A stretch of 27,443 nucleotides of DNA from a virus. How positions within the stretch are numbered: position 1 is the first letter of the stretch; each line of letters opens with the position of its first letter. Positions 3,720 through 24,679 of the stretch are shown piece by piece. The notes beneath the pieces are model-generated. The model was given only the letters and a program-made list of their open reading frames with translations. It did not search any database and was not told where the DNA came from. The stretch covers positions 1 through 27,443 of IMG/VR virus record IMGVR_UViG_3300007735_000562. The stretch is one strand, 5' to 3'. The position numbers and the translations under genes are program-made.

Positions 3720-5189
3720 ATGGACATTTCTGATCTTGAGCGTAAGCTAGGAATTGATGGCATTTCTGCTGAACAGCAGATGGAGATCATTTCCGCTTTG
3801 CAACAGTCTGCTGCTGAGAAGATTGCCAAGGCCAAGAGCGAGTCTATTGGCAAGGGTGCTGAACTTGTCATCCAAGGCTTAAAGAAGATCAAGTCAGACA
3901 TGGAGCAAAAGTTTGCTCAGTTGAATGGCGAGATTCAGAGCAAAGTTGCCTCTATTCAAAATGGTCAGGATGGCAAAGATGGCAAAGATGGACGGGATGG
4001 CAAACAAGGGCCAGCAGGAGCCACAGGCGCAACAGGGCGAGATGGTAGTCCTGGGCGTGATGGAGTTGATGGCGCTAACGGTGTTGGTGTTGCCTCTGCT
4101 CGCATTGATTTTGATGGTAGCCTTGTTATCGTTCTTGATAACGGTAGTGAAATTAACGCTGGTGAGGTTGTTCCTTTTGATATTGCTGAACGCATCAAAG
4201 TCATTACTAATGGTGGCGGTACTTCTCAGTATGTACTTGATACTCTAGCAAGCCTACAGGCTCAAATCAGTGCAATTACTGGTGGACTGTCCTATCAAGG
4301 AACTTGGAACGCATCTACCAATACGCCAACTTTGACTTCTAGCGTTGGAGTCACAAACTATTACTACATCGTAGGCACATCAGGGTCAACAAACCTTAAT
4401 GGCATTACTGATTGGGTAGCAGGGGATTGGGCAATCTACAACGGCACTGCTTGGCAAAAGATTGACCAGACCAATTTAGTAGTTTCAGTTGCAGGGCGTA
4501 CTGGTGCTATTACTTTGACCACTACTGATATTGGCGGTTTAGGGACAATTGCTACCCAGGCTGCAAACAATGTCTCTATCACTGGTGGTTCAATCACAGG
4601 AATAACAGATTTAGCAGTTGCTGATGGTGGTACAGGAGCATCTACGGCATCGGGAGCCAGAACTAATTTGGGATTGGTAATTGGAACAGATGTTCTTGCT
4701 CCAACAGGTTCTGCGGCAAGTCTTATAGGATTCCCAACTCTTAATCAAAACACAACTGGTACTGCAGCTAACATTACTGCAACAACCAATAGCACTCTCA
4801 CAACTCTAAGTTCTTTGAGTCTTCCTGGCTCACAAGTTTCTGGCAATATTTCTGGTAATGCAGCCAATGTGACAGGAACTGTGGCTGTTGCCAATGGTGG
4901 TACAGGTGCAACCACTACTTCTGGTGCTAGAACAAATCTTGGTTTGGTGATTGGTACAGATGTTTTGGCTCCTAATGGATCAGCTGCATCTTTGACCTCA
5001 TTTCCAACGCTGAACCAGAACACCACAGGAACTGCGGCATCCACCCCTAAACTCTTGACTACGAACTTCACGATTGAGCAAAGTGGAACTAAGTTGTTGT
5101 TTAAGTATGGGGCAACGACTATTGCATCAATGGACTCAACTGGAGTCATTACATCTGTAACTAACATAGTTGCAAATGGAACACCTTAA
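3720..5189 (+). CDS. Tail fibre protein with collagen-like stalk
   Basis: A 489-residue fibre-type protein whose ATG immediately follows the portal stop codon. Order of parts: helical, probably coiled-coil N-terminus (1-80); 14 collagen-type Gly-X-Y triplets (about 82-122); a small beta-rich part; a segment with SYQGTWNAST and DWVAGDWAIYNGTAWQKI (about 190-245), found in many phage fibres; an AGRTGAITLTTTDIGGL motif; then two copies of a 51-residue repeat (300-350 and 390-440); and a final module ending NIVANGTP. Such proteins form trimers that contact the host surface. The final about 42 residues are related to the end of the protein at 15247-15522. Its place between portal and scaffold is unusual for a fibre gene. 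Confidence 0.85.
   Translation: MDISDLERKLGIDGISAEQQMEIISALQQSAAEKIAKAKSESIGKGAELVIQGLKKIKSDMEQKFAQLNGEIQSKVASIQNGQDGKDGKDGRDGKQGPAGATGATGRDGSPGRDGVDGANGVGVASARIDFDGSLVIVLDNGSEINAGEVVPFDIAERIKVITNGGGTSQYVLDTLASLQAQISAITGGLSYQGTWNASTNTPTLTSSVGVTNYYYIVGTSGSTNLNGITDWVAGDWAIYNGTAWQKIDQTNLVVSVAGRTGAITLTTTDIGGLGTIATQAANNVSITGGSITGITDLAVADGGTGASTASGARTNLGLVIGTDVLAPTGSAASLIGFPTLNQNTTGTAANITATTNSTLTTLSSLSLPGSQVSGNISGNAANVTGTVAVANGGTGATTTSGARTNLGLVIGTDVLAPNGSAASLTSFPTLNQNTTGTAASTPKLLTTNFTIEQSGTKLLFKYGATTIASMDSTGVITSVTNIVANGTP
3963..4085 (+). repeat. Collagen-like Gly-X-Y repeat tract in fibre gene
   Basis: Fourteen consecutive Gly-X-Y triplets (GQD GKD GKD GRD GKQ GPA GAT GAT GRD GSP GRD GVD GAN GVG). 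Collagen-like tracts in phage fibres form rigid triple-helical stalks. The DNA is a run of near-repeats of GATGGCAAA, so copy number may vary between relatives by slippage. Confidence 0.9.
4617..5039 (+). repeat. Two copies of a 51-residue fibre repeat
   Basis: Direct repeats at 4617-4769 and 4887-5039, 270 bases apart. Both encode VA(D/N)GGTGA..., then SGARTNLGLVIGTDVLAP and FPTLNQNTTGTAA, differing at only a few residues, while many third codon positions differ. The protein is held while the DNA has drifted, so this is an old duplication under selection. The GGTGA(S/T)T...ARTNLG motif is common in phage tail fibres. Confidence 0.9.
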
Positions 5190-5202: not shown

Positions 5203-6537
5203 ATGGCAACCTCAGTAACGCTAAAACCAAACGCAATTGATATTTCTGGTTCAACTTCAGGAACTACGACACTTCAGGCAAGTGCAGTTGCTGGTACTAC
5301 CACTTTGACGCTTCCTGCGGCTACTGACACCTTGGTTGGTAAGACAACGACTGACACGCTGACCAATAAGACGCTAACTGGTGCGGCTATGAATGGTACT
5401 TTGGGGGCTACCACTCCAAGCACTGCATCTGTAACTACCCTGACTACATCATCTACTGTCACTCACAGTGGCGGCACAGCTAATGGTGTGGCCTATCTTG
5501 ATGGCTCAAAGGTGCTGACCACGGGTAGTGCGCTGGTGTTTGATGGTAGTAACTTGGGATTGGGTGTTACGCCTAGTGCTTGGAGTTTATGGGGTTCGGT
5601 TCTTCAAGGTAACCCTTACTCTTTAACCGGTTACAACAACGGTTCTGGTAACGTTCAAGCAGCTTTGTGGTGTAACTCATATCGCAATTCAGGCGGTACA
5701 AATACTTTTTATGCTACTGGGTATGCAACTCAGTATGTTCAAGCTAGTGGCTCACACGCTTGGACCGTTTCTACCGCATCAGGCACAGCGGGTAACGCAA
5801 TCAGCTTCACCCAAGCAATGACGCTTGATGCTAGTGGTCGGCTGCTTTTAAACAGAACAACAAACAACAATAATGAAATTCTGCAAATTAGCGGCAATGC
5901 AAACTCTCTTTGTTCAGCATTCTTTGCAAACACAACTACAGGGCAGTCTTATGGGGCTTATATTGCGGCTGGAACAAACAGCACTGATTATGCGTTTCGG
6001 ATTCAAAATGCAGCGGCAAACACAGATTATTTAAAAGTAACTGGTGACGGTAACTTGCTGGTGGGGACTACGAGTAATGTCAACACAGCTAAATCCGTTG
6101 TTTCTTTTAGTTCTGGCGCTGGCGGTTCTATTGAATATACAGGCGGCACAGGCGCAACCAATATGTTCATTTTTAGAAACACAAATGGAAATGTTGGTGC
6201 AATTTTTACAAGTGGTTCAGCAACAACATATTCAACATCTTCTGACTATAGATTAAAAAATTCTATTGCGCCAATGACAGGTGCTTTGACTAAAGTTGCC
6301 GCATTAAAACCTGTTACATATAAATGGAATGTAGATGATACAACTGGTCAAGGCTTTATTGCTCACGAGTTAGCTGAAGTTTGCCCTCAAGCAGTTGTAG
6401 GTGAAAAAGACGCTGTGGATGAAGATGGCAACCCCGTCTACCAAGGCATTGACACCAGCTTCTTGGTTGCAACCCTCACAGCGGCAATACAAGAGCTTAA
6501 CGCTAAATTTGAAGAATACAAGGCGGCACACCCATGA
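5203..6537 (+). CDS. Tail fibre/spike with C-terminal S74 auto-chaperone
   Basis: A 444-residue receptor-binding-type fibre. The N-terminal part is Thr/Ala-rich with a TDTLVGKTTTDTLTNKTLTG motif shared by many phage fibres, then low-complexity beta-rich repeats. The last about 98 residues are an intramolecular chaperone auto-processing domain (peptidase S74): SDYRLKNSI starts at residue 347, followed by VTYKWN, GFIAHEL and a helical tail AAIQELNAKFEEYKAAHP. In this family the domain folds the trimer and then cuts itself off just before the Ser of S-D-x-R-x-K; S347 and K352 are the expected catalytic pair. The ribosome-binding site AAAGGAAAG precedes the ATG. It overlaps the HNH gene by 4 bases (ATGA). 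Confidence 0.9.
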   Translation: MATSVTLKPNAIDISGSTSGTTTLQASAVAGTTTLTLPAATDTLVGKTTTDTLTNKTLTGAAMNGTLGATTPSTASVTTLTTSSTVTHSGGTANGVAYLDGSKVLTTGSALVFDGSNLGLGVTPSAWSLWGSVLQGNPYSLTGYNNGSGNVQAALWCNSYRNSGGTNTFYATGYATQYVQASGSHAWTVSTASGTAGNAISFTQAMTLDASGRLLLNRTTNNNNEILQISGNANSLCSAFFANTTTGQSYGAYIAAGTNSTDYAFRIQNAAANTDYLKVTGDGNLLVGTTSNVNTAKSVVSFSSGAGGSIEYTGGTGATNMFIFRNTNGNVGAIFTSGSATTYSTSSDYRLKNSIAPMTGALTKVAALKPVTYKWNVDDTTGQGFIAHELAEVCPQAVVGEKDAVDEDGNPVYQGIDTSFLVATLTAAIQELNAKFEEYKAAHP

Positions 6538-7142
6538 ACGAAATTTGGCATCCCTGCGCTGGCTTTGAAACTCACTATGAGGTGAGCAACCTTGGAAATG
6601 TGCGTTCCATTGAACGATATGCAAACAATGGACACAATAACGGGTTGCGTAAATTGCTATCAAGGGTTTTAAAACCTGCGCTTGGCAAATCTGGGTATTT
6701 ACTTGTTACTTTCTCTGTTGACAATACACAATCTAGTCAGAATGTACATCGTCTTGTGGCAAGAGCATTTATTTCTAATGAATCAAACAAACCACAAGTT
6801 AATCACAAAGATGGTAACAAGCTGAACAACATGGCTGACAATCTTGAGTGGGTAACGGCATCAGAAAATGGCTTGCACTCATACAGAGTTCTTGGAAATG
6901 TTGCAAAAAACAAACCTTCTTTTGGTATAAAAAACCCAAAAGTTAAGCCTGTCATTGCCACAAACATTGAAACTGGTGAACAAATTTTAATTGCTGGTAC
7001 GAAACAAAAAAAAGAGCTTGGCTTTAGTCAGACTTGTGTAGATAAGGCAATTCGTGAAGGCAAGTCTTACAAAGGTTGGTTATTTCAATCTGCCATCATT
7101 CAATCACTCACCGCCCGTATAACTGCTTTGGAGTCAGCATGA
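6534..7142 (+). CDS. HNH homing endonuclease fused to a fibre 3' remnant
   Basis: A 202-residue free-standing HNH endonuclease. It begins with a NUMOD4-type domain (EIWHPCAGFETHYEVSNLGN, 3-22), then the HNH core: VHRLVARAF (71-79), VNHKDGNKLNNMADNLEW (89-106) with H72, H91 and N103 as likely active-site or metal residues, then a NUMOD1-like DNA-binding region (about 138-184). Such enzymes cut phage alleles lacking the insert and spread by repair. The last 17 residues (SAIIQSLTARITALESA) do not look like an HNH end; they look like the usual coiled C-terminus of S74 tail fibres, so the gene appears to have captured the displaced end of the upstream fibre gene. It starts at an ATGA overlap with the fibre stop and overlaps the next gene the same way. 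Confidence 0.93.
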   Translation: MNEIWHPCAGFETHYEVSNLGNVRSIERYANNGHNNGLRKLLSRVLKPALGKSGYLLVTFSVDNTQSSQNVHRLVARAFISNESNKPQVNHKDGNKLNNMADNLEWVTASENGLHSYRVLGNVAKNKPSFGIKNPKVKPVIATNIETGEQILIAGTKQKKELGFSQTCVDKAIREGKSYKGWLFQSAIIQSLTARITALESA

Positions 7143-7429
7143 TTACTTGGAACATCAGTCAACTTGACCGACAAACCTCAGATGGATTTGTTTACTGTGC
7201 ACATTGGCAAGCAACTGCAACAGATGGGGATTACTCTGCATCCATTGTGAACACTTGCACATGGAGTGATGGTTCTCCAACAGTGCCATACGACTCTCTG
7301 ACAAAAGAAACTGTATTGGGATGGATATGGGCCAATGGTGTGGATAAAGACGCTGTTGAAGAGGCTTTGGCTGCTCAGATTGCCGAACAGAAAGCACCAA
7401 AAATTGCAAGGGGTTTGCCTTGGAACTGA
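7139..7429 (+). CDS. Small phage protein, DUF7936-like
   Basis: A 96-residue protein beginning at the ATGA overlap with the HNH stop; a further in-frame ATG upstream lies inside the HNH gene. It starts MITWNISQLDRQTSDGFV and has VAHW-type (YCAHWQATATDGDY) and LGWIWANGVDKDAVEEALAAQI segments, a pattern I recognise from a widespread phage family usually found beside tail-fibre genes. The family label is from memory. Function is unknown; the location suggests a fibre-associated or assembly role. The C-terminal half is helical and ends GLPW. Confidence 0.8.
   Translation: MITWNISQLDRQTSDGFVYCAHWQATATDGDYSASIVNTCTWSDGSPTVPYDSLTKETVLGWIWANGVDKDAVEEALAAQIAEQKAPKIARGLPWN
7408..7413 (+). promoter_or_regulatory. 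Ribosome-binding site supporting a TTG start
   Basis: AAGGGG, six bases before the TTG at 7420. It is the main reason to call a TTG-started gene there, since no ATG is available near the start of that reading frame. Confidence 0.6.
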
Positions 7430-8860: not shown

Positions 8861-9838
8861 ATGGCATTTCCTACCCCTGCGGTAACCACGACTACCGCCG
8901 CTACCTTCATTCCTGAAATTTGGAGTGATGAAATTGTTGCCGCATACAAGAAAAACTTGGTGCTGGCAAATTTGGTAATGAAGATGAACTTCAAGGGCAA
9001 GAAAGGTGACACCGTTCACATTCCTGCACCTTATCGTGGTTCTGCTTCTGCCAAGGCCGCTTCTACCGCAGTGACGCTGATTGCAGCCACTGAGACTGAA
9101 GTTCAAGTGTCGATCAACAAGCACTATGAATATAGCCGCTTGATTGAGGACATCGTTGAGGCTCAAGCCCTGAACAGCTTGCGTCAGTTTTATACCAATG
9201 ATGCTGGTTATGCCCTGGCTAAACAAGTCGATACCGACTTGATCCAGTTGGGTCGTTCTGCCAACGGCGGTACTGCTGACAACGCTCGTTACGCTGGTGG
9301 CTTTATCGGTGGCGATGGCACGACTGCCTTCGACTACACGGCTAACACCAACACTGGTAACGCCACTGCTCTGACTGATGCTGCCATTCGCCGCACCATT
9401 CAGCGTTTGGATGACAACGACACTCCTATGGATGGTCGCTTCTTCATCATCCCCCCGTCTAGCCGTAACACGCTGATGGGTTTGGCTCGTTACACTGAGC
9501 AAGCCTTTGTGGGTGATGGCAACGCCATCCGCAATGGTGAAATCGGTAACCTGTATGGCATCCCCGTGTTCACCACCAGCAACGCTGACTCTGCATCTGC
9601 CACTGCGACTTTCCCCGCATCTGGTACTGCAATCGCCCGTGTTTGCTTGATGGGCCATCGTGACTCTATGGTTTTGGTTGAGCAAGTGGGCATTCGCTCA
9701 CAAACTCAGTACAAACAAGAGTACTTGGGTACGCTGTTCACTTCGGACACGCTGTATGGTGTGAAGGCTCTCCGCACTTCTACCACTAGCACTGATCCGA
9801 ATGCCGCATCCATGTTCGCTTTGGTTGTGCCTTCCTAA
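8861..9838 (+). CDS. Major capsid protein (HK97-fold type)
   Basis: A 325-residue coat protein. It starts MAFPTPAVTTTTAATFIPEIWSDEIV-style and continues with LVMKMNFKGKKGDTVHIP, a basic loop, YEYSRLIEDIVEAQ, and a long Ala/Thr-rich middle, all typical of phage coat proteins of the HK97-fold superfamily that lack a cleaved prodomain. It forms the icosahedral shell. A strong ribosome-binding site (AAGGAGA) precedes the ATG and an intrinsic terminator follows about 12 bases after the stop, both fitting high expression. The exact coat family cannot be settled by eye. Confidence 0.93.
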   Translation: MAFPTPAVTTTTAATFIPEIWSDEIVAAYKKNLVLANLVMKMNFKGKKGDTVHIPAPYRGSASAKAASTAVTLIAATETEVQVSINKHYEYSRLIEDIVEAQALNSLRQFYTNDAGYALAKQVDTDLIQLGRSANGGTADNARYAGGFIGGDGTTAFDYTANTNTGNATALTDAAIRRTIQRLDDNDTPMDGRFFIIPPSSRNTLMGLARYTEQAFVGDGNAIRNGEIGNLYGIPVFTTSNADSASATATFPASGTAIARVCLMGHRDSMVLVEQVGIRSQTQYKQEYLGTLFTSDTLYGVKALRTSTTSTDPNAASMFALVVPS

Positions 9839-11540: not shown

Positions 11541-11594
11541 ATGAAAATGACCAAAGCTGCTAAAAAGGTTGGCATTTCCAGTTTCTTCCTTTAA
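11541..11594 (+). pseudogene. Orphan 5' end of a DUF6496-like gene
   Basis: A 17-codon frame, MKMTKAAKKV then GISSFFL and stop, with a good ribosome-binding site (AAGGAATTGCT) at the normal place for the next gene in the operon. MKMTKAAKKV is the typical start of the small DUF6496-like family, whose body resumes at 12074. The reverse-strand HNH gene lies between. I read this as the abandoned original start of the split gene. Confidence 0.65.
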
Positions 11595-12075
11595 CAATTG
11601 CACAAATTGTTGAATCAGACACATTAAACGCTTTTGCCAAATCGGATGACTTAACAAGTTTTTGATTATGAAGATGTTTTATAGCAAGCACACATCGCTC
11701 AGTAAGCAATGCTCTTCCATTGTTTTCGTGTCTATGTGTTCCATGTTTTACAGCATCTTTATGATTTTGTTCAACAGTACCATAGGAAAGATTGTCAACG
11801 CAATTGTTGTATCTATTCCCATCAAGATGCCTAATAACCATTCCATCAGGTCTTTGTCCAATAAACACAAGAGCAACAAGTCTATGAATGTACAAAGATT
11901 TTTGTATTTCTCCATTTAAGGATTTGCATGAAACACTTAAATAATGGGTTGCAGAATTTAACTTCCTTAAAACTCTACCATCCTTCTTTAATACAGCAAA
12001 ATTACCATAATTGCTTATTTCATAAATTCCCTCATAATTGGGAACTGGTTTCCAAATTTCAGAAAGGTTTGGCAT
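11560..12075 (-). CDS. HNH homing endonuclease, reverse orientation
   Basis: A 171-residue HNH endonuclease on the strand opposite to all neighbours. It has a NUMOD4-type start (SEIWKPVPNYEGIYEISNYG, 5-24), the HNH core IHRLVALVF (63-71) and RHLDGNRYNNCVDNLSYGT (82-100) with H64, H83 and N95 as likely active-site residues, and a C-terminal helix-turn-helix (about 123-168, LAKAFNVSDSTICAIVKGRNW). I chose the ATG at 12075 because AGGAGT lies 8 bases upstream and the family begins there; the open frame extends further but that part is antisense to the next genes. It is a self-spreading element, not a virion gene. Its start codon overlaps the + strand start at 12074. Confidence 0.92.
   Translation of the reverse strand: MPNLSEIWKPVPNYEGIYEISNYGNFAVLKKDGRVLRKLNSATHYLSVSCKSLNGEIQKSLYIHRLVALVFIGQRPDGMVIRHLDGNRYNNCVDNLSYGTVEQNHKDAVKHGTHRHENNGRALLTERCVLAIKHLHNQKLVKSSDLAKAFNVSDSTICAIVKGRNWKCQPF
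11562..12075. repeat. Near-identical direct repeats at both ends of the HNH gene
   Basis: AAAAAGGTTGGCAT at 11562-11575 and AGAAAGGTTTGGCAT at 12061-12075 differ by one base and one single-base gap. They coincide with the last and first codons of the HNH gene. They may mark the recombination ends of the insertion, or be chance. Confidence 0.5.
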
Positions 12076-12250
12076 GAAAGCAACTCCTAAACAACAAAAG
12101 AAGATAGCAAAAGTATACCACGAGTACAAGGAAGGAACTTTGCACTCAGGCTCAAAAAAGGGGCCAGAAGTGACTTCTCGTAAACAAGCAATTGCCATTG
12201 CCTTGTCTGAGGCTGGTATGGCAAAGCCCAAGAAGAAGGCCAAGAAATGA
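12074..12250 (+). CDS. DUF6496-like small basic protein
   Basis: A 58-residue protein with the body KVYHEYKEGTLHSGSKKGPE and RKQAIAIALSEAGMAKP, the hallmark of a small phage family (I recall it as DUF6496). It is Lys-rich at both ends. The start used here, MKATPKQQKK, replaces the interrupted MKMTKAAKKV at 11541. AGAAAGG lies just upstream, inside the HNH gene. Its ATG shares CATG (12073-12076) with the divergent HNH start. Function is unknown. Confidence 0.8.
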   Translation: MKATPKQQKKIAKVYHEYKEGTLHSGSKKGPEVTSRKQAIAIALSEAGMAKPKKKAKK

Positions 12251-12405
12251 AGCCTGGACTCTATGCCAATATTCATGCAAAACAGGCCCGTATAAAGGCT
12301 GGTTCTGGTGAGAAGATGCGTAAACCTGGGACTCCAGGCGCACCCACTGCCTTGGCATTTAAACAAGCTGCAAAGACTGCAAAGAAAGTTAAAAAGGTGA
12401 AGTAG
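12247..12405 (+). CDS. Small basic phage protein (GLYANIHAK family)
   Basis: A 52-residue Lys-rich protein (MKPGLYANIHAKQARIKAGS, then GEKMRKPGTPGAPTALAFKQ and a Lys-rich tail). I recognise the GLYANIxAKxxRIxxGSGExMRKPG pattern as a recurrent phage small protein that usually precedes the gene that follows here. It starts at an ATGA overlap, and its stop directly abuts the next ATG. Function unknown. Confidence 0.78.
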   Translation: MKPGLYANIHAKQARIKAGSGEKMRKPGTPGAPTALAFKQAAKTAKKVKKVK

Positions 12406-12708
12406 ATGAAATCTCCTGTTTGGCAAACAAAAGCTGGTCAAAATCCCAAAGGGGGGTTGAATGCCAAGGGGAGAGCATCTTATAATGCCGCAACTGGTGG
12501 CAATCTGAAAGCACCAGTAAAGTCGGGGGATAATCCTCGCAGAGCAAGTTTCTTGGCTCGCATGGGCAATATGGATGGCCCTGAGTACAAGGATGGTGAA
12601 CCAACAAGACTGCTTCTTTCGCTAAAAGCATGGGGTGCTAACTCCAAAGCTGACGCAAAGGCAAAAGCTAGAGCAATTTCCGCAAGGAACAAGGCAAAGG
12701 CGAAATGA
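12406..12708 (+). CDS. DUF6321-like basic phage protein
   Basis: A 100-residue basic protein with GGLNAKGRASYNAATGGNLK, APVKSGDNPRRASFLARMGN and a C-terminal Ala/Lys-rich helix (KADAKAKARAISARNKAKAK). The order GGLNxKGRxxYN, then GxNLKAPV and RRASFxARMxxMxGPxxxD matches a widespread phage family I recall as DUF6321. It is very basic overall, and sits with three other basic small proteins in one run. Possibly DNA-contacting in the head, by inference only. Confidence 0.8.
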   Translation: MKSPVWQTKAGQNPKGGLNAKGRASYNAATGGNLKAPVKSGDNPRRASFLARMGNMDGPEYKDGEPTRLLLSLKAWGANSKADAKAKARAISARNKAKAK

Positions 12709-23609: not shown

Positions 23610-24093
23610 CCCATATTTCATCATCGGCGCAATGATTGCGGTTGCTGGTGCTTATGGGTATGGGCATCATGTTGGATGGGGTGATAGAGATGCTGAAATG
23701 CAAGTTGAGATTGCTAAAAAGAATGATGAAGCACGAGAAAAAGAGCGTGAACTTGCCCAACAACTGAATGAACAATCAACCAAACTGTCGGAGGCCAATA
23801 ATGTTATCAATCAAAAACAATCTAGTCTTGATTCTGCTATTCGTGCTGGTCGGTTGCGGCTCCAAACCTCAAGTTGTGTACAAGCCACCCCAAATGCCCC
23901 CACTCCCGCCGGAGATAGCCCAAAAGAAAGAAGTGAACCTAACAGACAGGTTTATGAAACTTCTGACTCCGACAGAGCAACCCTCGCAGCCATTGCCGAA
24001 ATCATCGCCCAAGGCGACAGAAACACAGCGCAATTGAATGCTTGTATCGACAGTTACAACAAGGTAATGGGGATAATCAATGGTAACAAGTGA
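23602..24093 (+). CDS. Rz: i-spanin (Rz-like)
   Basis: A 163-residue inner-membrane spanin subunit: one N-terminal helix (about 5-26, with GAYGYGHHVG) and a long periplasmic coiled coil (about 30-85, KERELAQQLNEQSTKL), then a Pro-containing stretch and a second helix ending in NACIDSYNKVM. Two Cys (about 93 and 148) could form disulfides. With Rz1 it bridges the inner and outer membranes and fuses them in the last step of lysis. Rz1 lies wholly inside this gene in the +1 frame. It overlaps the preceding gene by 8 bases and the endolysin by 14. Confidence 0.85.
   Translation: MVNPYFIIGAMIAVAGAYGYGHHVGWGDRDAEMQVEIAKKNDEAREKERELAQQLNEQSTKLSEANNVINQKQSSLDSAIRAGRLRLQTSSCVQATPNAPTPAGDSPKERSEPNRQVYETSDSDRATLAAIAEIIAQGDRNTAQLNACIDSYNKVMGIINGNK
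23790..23794 (+). promoter_or_regulatory. Ribosome-binding site for the nested Rz1
   Basis: GGAGG six bases before the ATG at 23801, inside the Rz reading frame. It decides the Rz1 start over the in-frame ATG at 23768. Confidence 0.8.
23801..24037 (+). CDS. Rz1: o-spanin (Rz1-like lipoprotein), nested in Rz
   Basis: A 78-residue lipoprotein, completely inside Rz in another frame. The signal is 8-17 (LVLILLFVLV) with lipobox L16-V17-G18-C19, giving a 60-residue mature protein. It is Pro-rich (YKPPQMPPLPPEI), the hallmark of Rz1. It would sit in the outer membrane and pair with the Rz C-terminus. The start at 23801 has a perfect ribosome-binding site. The fully nested arrangement is known from lambda-like phages. 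Confidence 0.85.
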   Translation: MLSIKNNLVLILLFVLVGCGSKPQVVYKPPQMPPLPPEIAQKKEVNLTDRFMKLLTPTEQPSQPLPKSSPKATETQRN

Positions 24094-24679
24094 ACAACTA
24101 AAGAAACTCCATATTGGCCCTGAATGGGTTGATGCCCTCAATGAAACCTTCAACACTTTTGGCATCTCTACCAAGCGCCAACAAGCGGCATTCATTGGTC
24201 AATGTGGGCATGAGTGCGGCAACTTCAGAATCCTTGAAGAAAACCTCAATTACAGGGCTGAAACCTTGATGAAGTTGTGGCCCAGGCGTTTTCCAACTCT
24301 TGAGATTGCGAACCAATATGCAAGAAACCCCAAAAAAATCGCCAACATGGTCTACGCTAGTCGTATGGGCAATCGTGATGAATCTAGTGGTGACGGGTAT
24401 CGTTTCCGTGGTCGAGGATGCATCCAGCTTACCGGACACGCTAATTACTTCCATGCGGGACAAGCACTAGGCACTGACTTTGTAATGGAGCCTGACCTTG
24501 TTGCCACGCCTAAGTATGCGGCATTGACTGCTGGATGGTTCTGGTCAACGCATGATTGCAACCGCTTGGCAGAGGCGGCAGATTGGGTAGGCTTGACTAA
24601 GAAGATCAATGGTGGAACCATTGGGTTGGATGACAGGATTAAGCACACTAACGAGGCTTTTGCGGTGCTTGGTTCTTGA
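24080..24679 (+). CDS. Endolysin, glycoside hydrolase family 19
   Basis: A 199-residue single-domain GH19 enzyme with no binding domain or signal peptide. It has FIGQCGHECGNFRILEENLN (38-57), with E45 as the expected acid and E54 close by; the YRFRGRGCIQLTG motif is conserved in GH19 lysozymes, as is AGWFWSTHDCNRLA. Such enzymes cut the glycan chains of peptidoglycan after holin release. The start overlaps the Rz stop by 14 bases. The last 32 bases overlap, in convergent orientation, the end of a - strand gene. Confidence 0.93.
   Translation: MVTSEQLKKLHIGPEWVDALNETFNTFGISTKRQQAAFIGQCGHECGNFRILEENLNYRAETLMKLWPRRFPTLEIANQYARNPKKIANMVYASRMGNRDESSGDGYRFRGRGCIQLTGHANYFHAGQALGTDFVMEPDLVATPKYAALTAGWFWSTHDCNRLAEAADWVGLTKKINGGTIGLDDRIKHTNEAFAVLGS

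Follow-up and report, generated by a model that had tools for sequence, protein, structure and literature searches.

A probable homing element that exchanges the 3' end of a phage tail-fibre gene

Elements that home by replacing the end of their host gene have previously been described from fungi. In the WHO elements of Torulaspora and Lachancea yeasts, each homing event replaces the 3' end of FBA1, and the fragment that has been displaced provides the second region of homology (PMC7282813). Comparable arrangements are the mORFs of fungal mitochondria, which are found in atp6 of Allomyces and in atp6, atp9, cox2, and nad3 of Glomus (PMC3630166). In phages, HNH genes have been described as either free-standing or inserted (PMC2988022, PMC2993671, PMC2248197, PMC12724721, PMC11855218). 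Here we consider an HNH endonuclease gene that lies directly behind an S74-type tail-fibre gene in the virus record IMGVR_UViG_3300007735_000562 of IMG/VR. The record comes from an uncultured phage, and the window analysed is the whole of it (27,443 bases). Judged from sequence comparisons, the HNH gene is probably (with a probability of roughly 0.85) part of a homing element of the free-standing kind, one that exchanges the 3' end of the gene hosting it, here the fibre gene.

An occupied fibre gene and its empty counterpart

The comparison with an empty site carries this reading. In contig L093, which was found through a search with the DUF7936 gene, an S74 fibre ending AAIQEQQAIIQSLTARITALESA / TAAIQEQQAIIQSLTARITALESA is followed directly by DUF7936, with the same ATGA overlap as in the window and with no HNH gene; contig L245 has a junction of the same type. 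Homology between the fibre genes of the window and L093 is 80.2% over 257 nucleotides (nt) on the left flank and stops at CAA GA, within the codons for Q-E. On the right flank it is 93.8% over 288 nt, of which the first 48 nt, encoding 16 residues of the HNH tail, are identical base for base. Because the left and right homologies to L093 end at these positions, the insert spans about 6495 to 7091. The features of the locus are as follows.

5203..6537, + strand: S74-type tail-fibre gene that hosts the element; 444 amino acids; Pfam Peptidase_S74, C-terminal, E 9.4e-12; PHROG tail fibre, 1.7e-35
6241..6258, + strand: self-cleavage motif S-D-Y-R-L-K, intact, in the intramolecular chaperone domain; Ser at 6241-6243 and Lys at 6256-6258; invariant in the fibre alignment
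6492-6494, + strand: left border of the insert, between CAA and GA(G); given by the limit of L093 homology and by the GAG codon signature
6493..6537, + strand: replacement fibre end ELNAKFEEYKAAHP and stop, probably brought by the element; homology to the empty-site fibre of L093 ceases at 6494
6495..7091, + strand: inserted unit of about 597 base pairs, consisting of the new fibre end and the HNH gene, which lacks its own stop codon; from comparison with the empty site L093
6534..7142, + strand: HNH endonuclease gene with NUMOD4, HNH_3, and a NUMOD1-like module; 202 amino acids; its start overlaps the fibre stop as ATGA
7092..7142, + strand: original fibre end AIIQSLTARITALESA with its stop, displaced so that the HNH gene now terminates in it; 48 of 48 nt identical to L093, the match extending into DUF7936; helix 187-201 in the model
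7139..7429, + strand: DUF7936 gene, which natively follows the fibre gene; Pfam DUF7936, E 2.8e-25; ATGA overlap kept; same junction in L093 and L245

The HNH frame differs from that of the fibre gene, and the HNH open reading frame (ORF) occupies the whole insert. The domain assignments of its product are well above the cut-offs (NUMOD4, E 4.8e-14, 52.7 bits against 23.4; HNH_3, E 4.2e-10, 39.5 bits against 24.8). An earlier note, made from the window sequence alone, had claimed that the tail of the HNH protein is foreign to HNH and NUMOD1 ends and resembles the C-terminus of an S74 fibre, and that the upstream fibre has a different ending of its own. The 48/48 nt identity to the end of the L093 fibre confirms the first point; for the second, the window fibre terminates in AAIQELNAKFEEYKAAHP and the HNH protein in SAIIQSLTARITALESA. 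The note had further supposed that HNH-less relatives would have an S74 fibre ending AIIQSLTARITALESA directly before the DUF7936 gene, as is the case in L093 and L245. It had counted 17 residues in the tail, and here only the displaced end itself stands: it comprises the last 16 residues of the HNH protein, and the S (and Q) before them is junction sequence.

The site of insertion lies within the S74 self-cleaving chaperone domain. The fibre has the S74 domain, the Ser-Lys dyad, and the chaperone fold of an S74 intramolecular-chaperone fibre, and a structural model of the domain (predicted local distance difference test score, pLDDT, 82.6) matches the solved intramolecular chaperones 3gud and 3gw6 as well as the MyRF domain 7dc3. 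In this model, residues 99-123 (numbered within the modelled piece) form the last helix. The site of insertion is in mid-helix, at 111/112, between the Q and E codons of TAAIQE. In endosialidases, for which the Ser-Lys dyad has been described (PMC3742443), the S74 chaperone domain brings about trimerisation of the protein, after which it is removed by cleavage (PMC3742443; PMC12632334). If cleavage of the endosialidase type applies here, the swap would not alter the mature fibre, and an element could insert at this site safely. A second fibre-like gene with collagen repeats lies upstream (3720-5189) and has two near-identical internal repeats, VA[DN]GGTGA.T.SGARTNLGLVIGTDVLAP.GSAASL.

The sequences show the structure of the unit: it consists of a new fibre 3' end, whose stop codon and the HNH start overlap, and of an HNH gene that lacks a stop of its own. 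With the unit in place, the fibre gene reads into the new end and so is complete, while the HNH gene runs on into the old fibre end and terminates at its stop, preserving the coupling to the next gene. In the proposed mechanism, the HNH enzyme would nick or cut uninvaded fibre genes near CAAGAA, and the break would be repaired from the genome of a co-infecting phage, with the conserved S74 region as the left arm and the displaced end plus the downstream gene as the right arm. Such repair would preserve the frame, and the altered end of the recipient would no longer be a target.

Recurrence and what is inherited together

The arrangement is not confined to the window. Among 80 IMG/VR relatives of the HNH protein, nearly all of those above about 60% identity lie directly behind an S74 fibre and have a fibre-like tail that varies by locus. 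Profiles of HNH and S74 were used to gather 34 distinct occupied loci and 120 distinct empty S74 ends; the empty set was drawn with the fibre and DUF7936 of the window as queries and is not a random sample. All of these relatives are metagenomic contigs; a search of cultured genomes for HNH relatives gave only distant ones (<=67% over short stretches) and no isolate. The layout is identical in 34 of the 34 occupied loci, as is the presence of an overlap, ATGA or TAATG, between the fibre stop and the HNH start. The displaced ends are of about 15 kinds, most of which match some empty-site fibre in frame. Occupied and empty loci that are alike in the tail can be paired (L043/L107, L015/L189, L029/L176, L044/L236, L028/L215, L049/L173, and L047/L168), and several of these pairs also have the same downstream gene. 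When scored against 105 distinct empty-site fibre ends, the window tail reaches 69 and the median occupied tail 60.5; 41 HNH homologues away from S74 fibres score <=23, and the 95th percentile of shuffled tails, at 30, is exceeded by the tails of 31/34 occupied loci.

The central claim of the earlier note, that the HNH cassette arrived with a donor fibre end and left the recipient's own end fused in frame to the endonuclease, is borne out by the borders with L093 and by this recurrence. That account called for HNH homologues elsewhere to be without such an end, and a fibre-type tail is absent in 41/41 homologues away from S74 fibres. The recurrent arrangement with many displaced ends and the separate HNH-AP2 origin described below are beyond what a single sequence could show.

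The borders also behave alike across loci. At the left border, the glutamate codon is GAG in 29/34 occupied but in only 21/107 empty sites (indicative p 1.8e-12), and therefore this codon belongs to the insert. In L016 and L045, the right border retains the complete fibre QEQQ, so that CAAGAR is present at both borders. The third positions of CAA and GAA at the insertion site are conserved, but another CAA codon upstream is equally so, and thus there is no clear target signature at the site.

A second class of enzyme is found in the same position. Proteins with HNH_3 and AP2 lie behind S74 fibres in L249 (same contig as L083), L250, L251, and L252. The fibres of these loci end EQQA(L/I)IVSMREE..., which is their own carried end, and the displaced ends are the same as before. 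The HNH-AP2 proteins end IQSLTARITALESA, ITQLTARITALESA/EGA, and IQSLTTRITALENK after FANHG, the motif at or near which other members stop; an HNH protein of different architecture has therefore reached the same state. Taken with the many displaced ends, this class argues for a kind of mobile element rather than a one-off accident. In L055 (4001-5000), a NUMOD4-type HNH element lies directly ahead of an AP2-type HNH gene behind one fibre, apparently as two stacked elements; stacking of that kind is known from WHO elements.

What travels together was assessed by correlations over 32 dereplicated loci. Similarity of the HNH core correlates with similarity of the carried end (rho 0.31, p 0.0003), and shows no correlation with that of the displaced tail (rho 0.04, p 0.24); nor is the fibre body correlated with the carried end (rho 0.02). 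On the HNH tree, about 15 tail classes require 17 changes and 8 carried-end classes require 12, the classes being counted from greedy clusters and part of the tail changes being erosion rather than new insertions. The carried end and the HNH gene thus appear to be co-inherited, and to be discordant with the body of the host gene. The window and L043 have their displaced end type, carried end, and neighbour gene in common; their HNH genes are only about 70% identical.

The enzyme itself is maintained, because its ratio of nonsynonymous to synonymous substitutions (dN/dS) against relatives is 0.06-0.11 at dS 1.1-1.9, a sign of purifying selection; the HNH core residues are invariant in the alignment. 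Behind this one conserved core there are three C-terminal options, a NUMOD1-like module (as in the window), a NUMOD3-like one (L018, L041, L055), or none, and comparison of L007, L018, L041, L015, and L043 suggests a swap of C-terminal modules at about residue 125. In an AlphaFold model of the window protein, which is of low confidence (mean pLDDT 60.5), the tail is a helix of residues 187-201 after the last strand. Tails are eroded in several relatives: that of L026 is frameshifted, those of L007 and L009 are 6-7 residues long, and that of L108 has about 4 residues. Because of this erosion, sequence comparison suggests that the fibre-type tail of the endonuclease is mostly a relic.

The window has another HNH gene, at 11560-12441 (- strand), in the region of structural genes. 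It encodes NUMOD4 and HNH_3 (homology at 11761-12063), and its product is 41% identical to the first over residues 2-113, has no fibre-like tail, and ends SDSTICAIVKGRNWKCQPF. Elsewhere in the window, the major capsid protein (8861-9838) is distantly related (25-35%) to those of short-tailed cyanophages such as A-4L and Pf-WMP3, and a GH19-type endolysin is encoded at 24080-24679.

Points against a homing element and rival explanations

Several observations weigh against a homing element that carries its own fibre end. Cleavage and homing by the HNH enzyme are steps that we infer. Six contigs of three lineages (L360, L366, L367, L373, L375, L376) have a fibre with the EAHGLIK end followed directly by DUF7936, with no HNH gene; the end is EAHGLIKNLETRISALEAK, joined to DUF7936 via ATGAC. 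Between L360 and the occupied L361, this end has 56/57 nt in common, with flanks of only about 85-87% identity. In L377, a 32-codon ORF, MWRHYCPEEKAWISVGKGQPCNWCEQIEKEKS, takes the HNH position behind an EAHGLIK end, and L385 and L386 bear ELNAKFEEYKATHP on another fibre, without HNH. In addition, a recognisable C-terminal DNA-binding module is missing in about half of the relatives. Over all loci, the displaced tail and the downstream gene are uncorrelated (rho 0.02), although close pairs do agree, and the argument therefore relies on close pairs of occupied and empty sites. Finally, the loci are mutually related and the tests not fully independent, so that p-values are indicative.

We had considered carried ends to be strictly exclusive to HNH loci, since none was present at first among the empty sites (0/120), but when the whole viral collection was scanned for these patterns, fibres with EAHGLIK or ELNAKFEEYK ends and no HNH gene came to light, and strict exclusivity was rejected. 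The carried end may derive from such HNH-less ends, or they may be scars after HNH loss; in the EAHGLIK context, both HNH and DUF7936 start with ATGAC. These exceptions leave the argument from the displaced end unaffected.

Given these points, it might be postulated that the HNH gene is a passenger, and that ordinary phage recombination within the S74 region and the coil-coding ends shuffles the ends with no cutting at the site. S74 ends are indeed hypervariable, the carried end is also found without HNH, and cutting by the HNH enzyme is presumed. However, HNH genes of two distinct classes are found at this kind of site, in both cases with the ATGA arrangement, the HNH gene is under strong purifying selection, and the carried end and HNH gene move as a unit. 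We consider the passenger explanation unlikely.

Another proposal is that the tail is a working part of the endonuclease under selection, for instance as a coil for its multimerisation or for binding to the fibre trimer. This would be consistent with tails that are nearly all in frame and predicted to be helical, and with the loss of the NUMOD1 module in many relatives, in which the tail follows the HNH core almost directly. Yet the tails are unrelated to HNH phylogeny, they are eroded in the four relatives named above, and homologous exchange inside the tail would also keep the frame; we regard a working tail as doubtful. If the HNH gene instead belongs to an end-replacing homing element, tails would be nearly all in frame because of crossing over inside the displaced end.

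The remaining alternatives fare considerably worse. If the insert were removed at the RNA or protein level, as an intron, as an intein, or by translational bypass, the original fibre end would be restored, which would account for a displaced end that is intact and continues the frame of a plausible original gene. Such removal is very improbable: no group I intron structure was matched in Rfam at the gathering or even a relaxed threshold, the HNH ORF fills the insert and lies in another frame than the fibre, and the fibre, whose end is complete, terminates at a stop codon of its own. Insertion of HNH behind an intact fibre gene, with a local duplication of the fibre end having made the tail, draws on the repeat-like, coiled nature of fibre ends. 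Tandem duplication was rejected as exceedingly improbable, since the two ends differ within each locus; moreover, the HNH tail matches the fibre ends of other phages base for base and onward into the downstream gene, and L093 contradicts it. That the tail is a natural HNH/NUMOD C-terminus, coil-like by chance, can be dismissed almost entirely, for although coiled-coil composition is common, the 0/41 control and the 48/48 nt match at the empty site rule it out.

Comparison with known systems

Taken together, the results make it reasonably likely that there is a widespread phage class of homing elements, without an intron and without a stop codon, that swap the distal half of the last S74 chaperone helix, a part that in endosialidases is lost from the mature protein by cleavage. 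The displaced end would be both the right homology arm and the 3' end of the enzyme gene, and at least two distinct HNH families would have converged on the site. If true, phages use a fungal-type trick of end replacement on tail-fibre genes, which would account for the strong mosaicism of S74 fibre ends and would allow a selfish gene to enter an essential gene without harm or splicing. The model predicts that empty alleles are cut and occupied alleles are not. It also gives a caution for annotation, in that the C-termini of HNH proteins may be displaced ends of host genes. An end-replacing homing element in phages was not found in the open-access papers searched, which leaves priority unproven.

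Among phage systems, the T4-type free-standing homing endonucleases (seg, mob) are likewise intron-less phage HNH genes that presumably spread when cuts in co-infecting genomes are repaired. However, they lie between genes or split a gene, and PMC2988022 describes none that carries an end for its host gene and leaves the displaced end in frame. The hidden HNH genes of the ShiLan type in phage methylase genes (PMC11855218) are also ORFs inside a host gene, in another frame and with no intron or intein, but there the insert is read through in the host protein, whereas the fibre of the element described here stops at the carried stop and its old end is displaced.

The fungal systems are closer. 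As in these, a replacement 3' end lies ahead of the endonuclease, and the native end lies behind it, contiguous with the native downstream gene. WHO elements, too, shift the old 3' end downstream, where it can act as the right homology arm, and the 5' and 3' histories of the host gene are discordant; in mORFs, too, the endonuclease ORF brings a foreign C-terminus for the host gene and displaces the native one downstream. Nevertheless, WHO elements encode an HO/intein-type LAGLIDADG enzyme, reside in a nuclear genome, and have had cleavage with resistant alleles demonstrated (PMC7282813), while mORFs have LAGLIDADG or GIY-YIG enzymes, occupy conserved respiratory genes, and generally have a displaced end that is separate from the ORF. 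The phage element differs from both in enzyme type, having an HNH_3 domain; unlike WHO, it swaps only 14-20 codons, its displaced end is fused in frame and gives the stop codon, and its cleavage is presumed. Thus, from its sequence organisation, the phage element works like a WHO element or mORF and is not a homologous member of either group. It is set apart by its occurrence in a phage and by the fusion of the displaced end to the enzyme.
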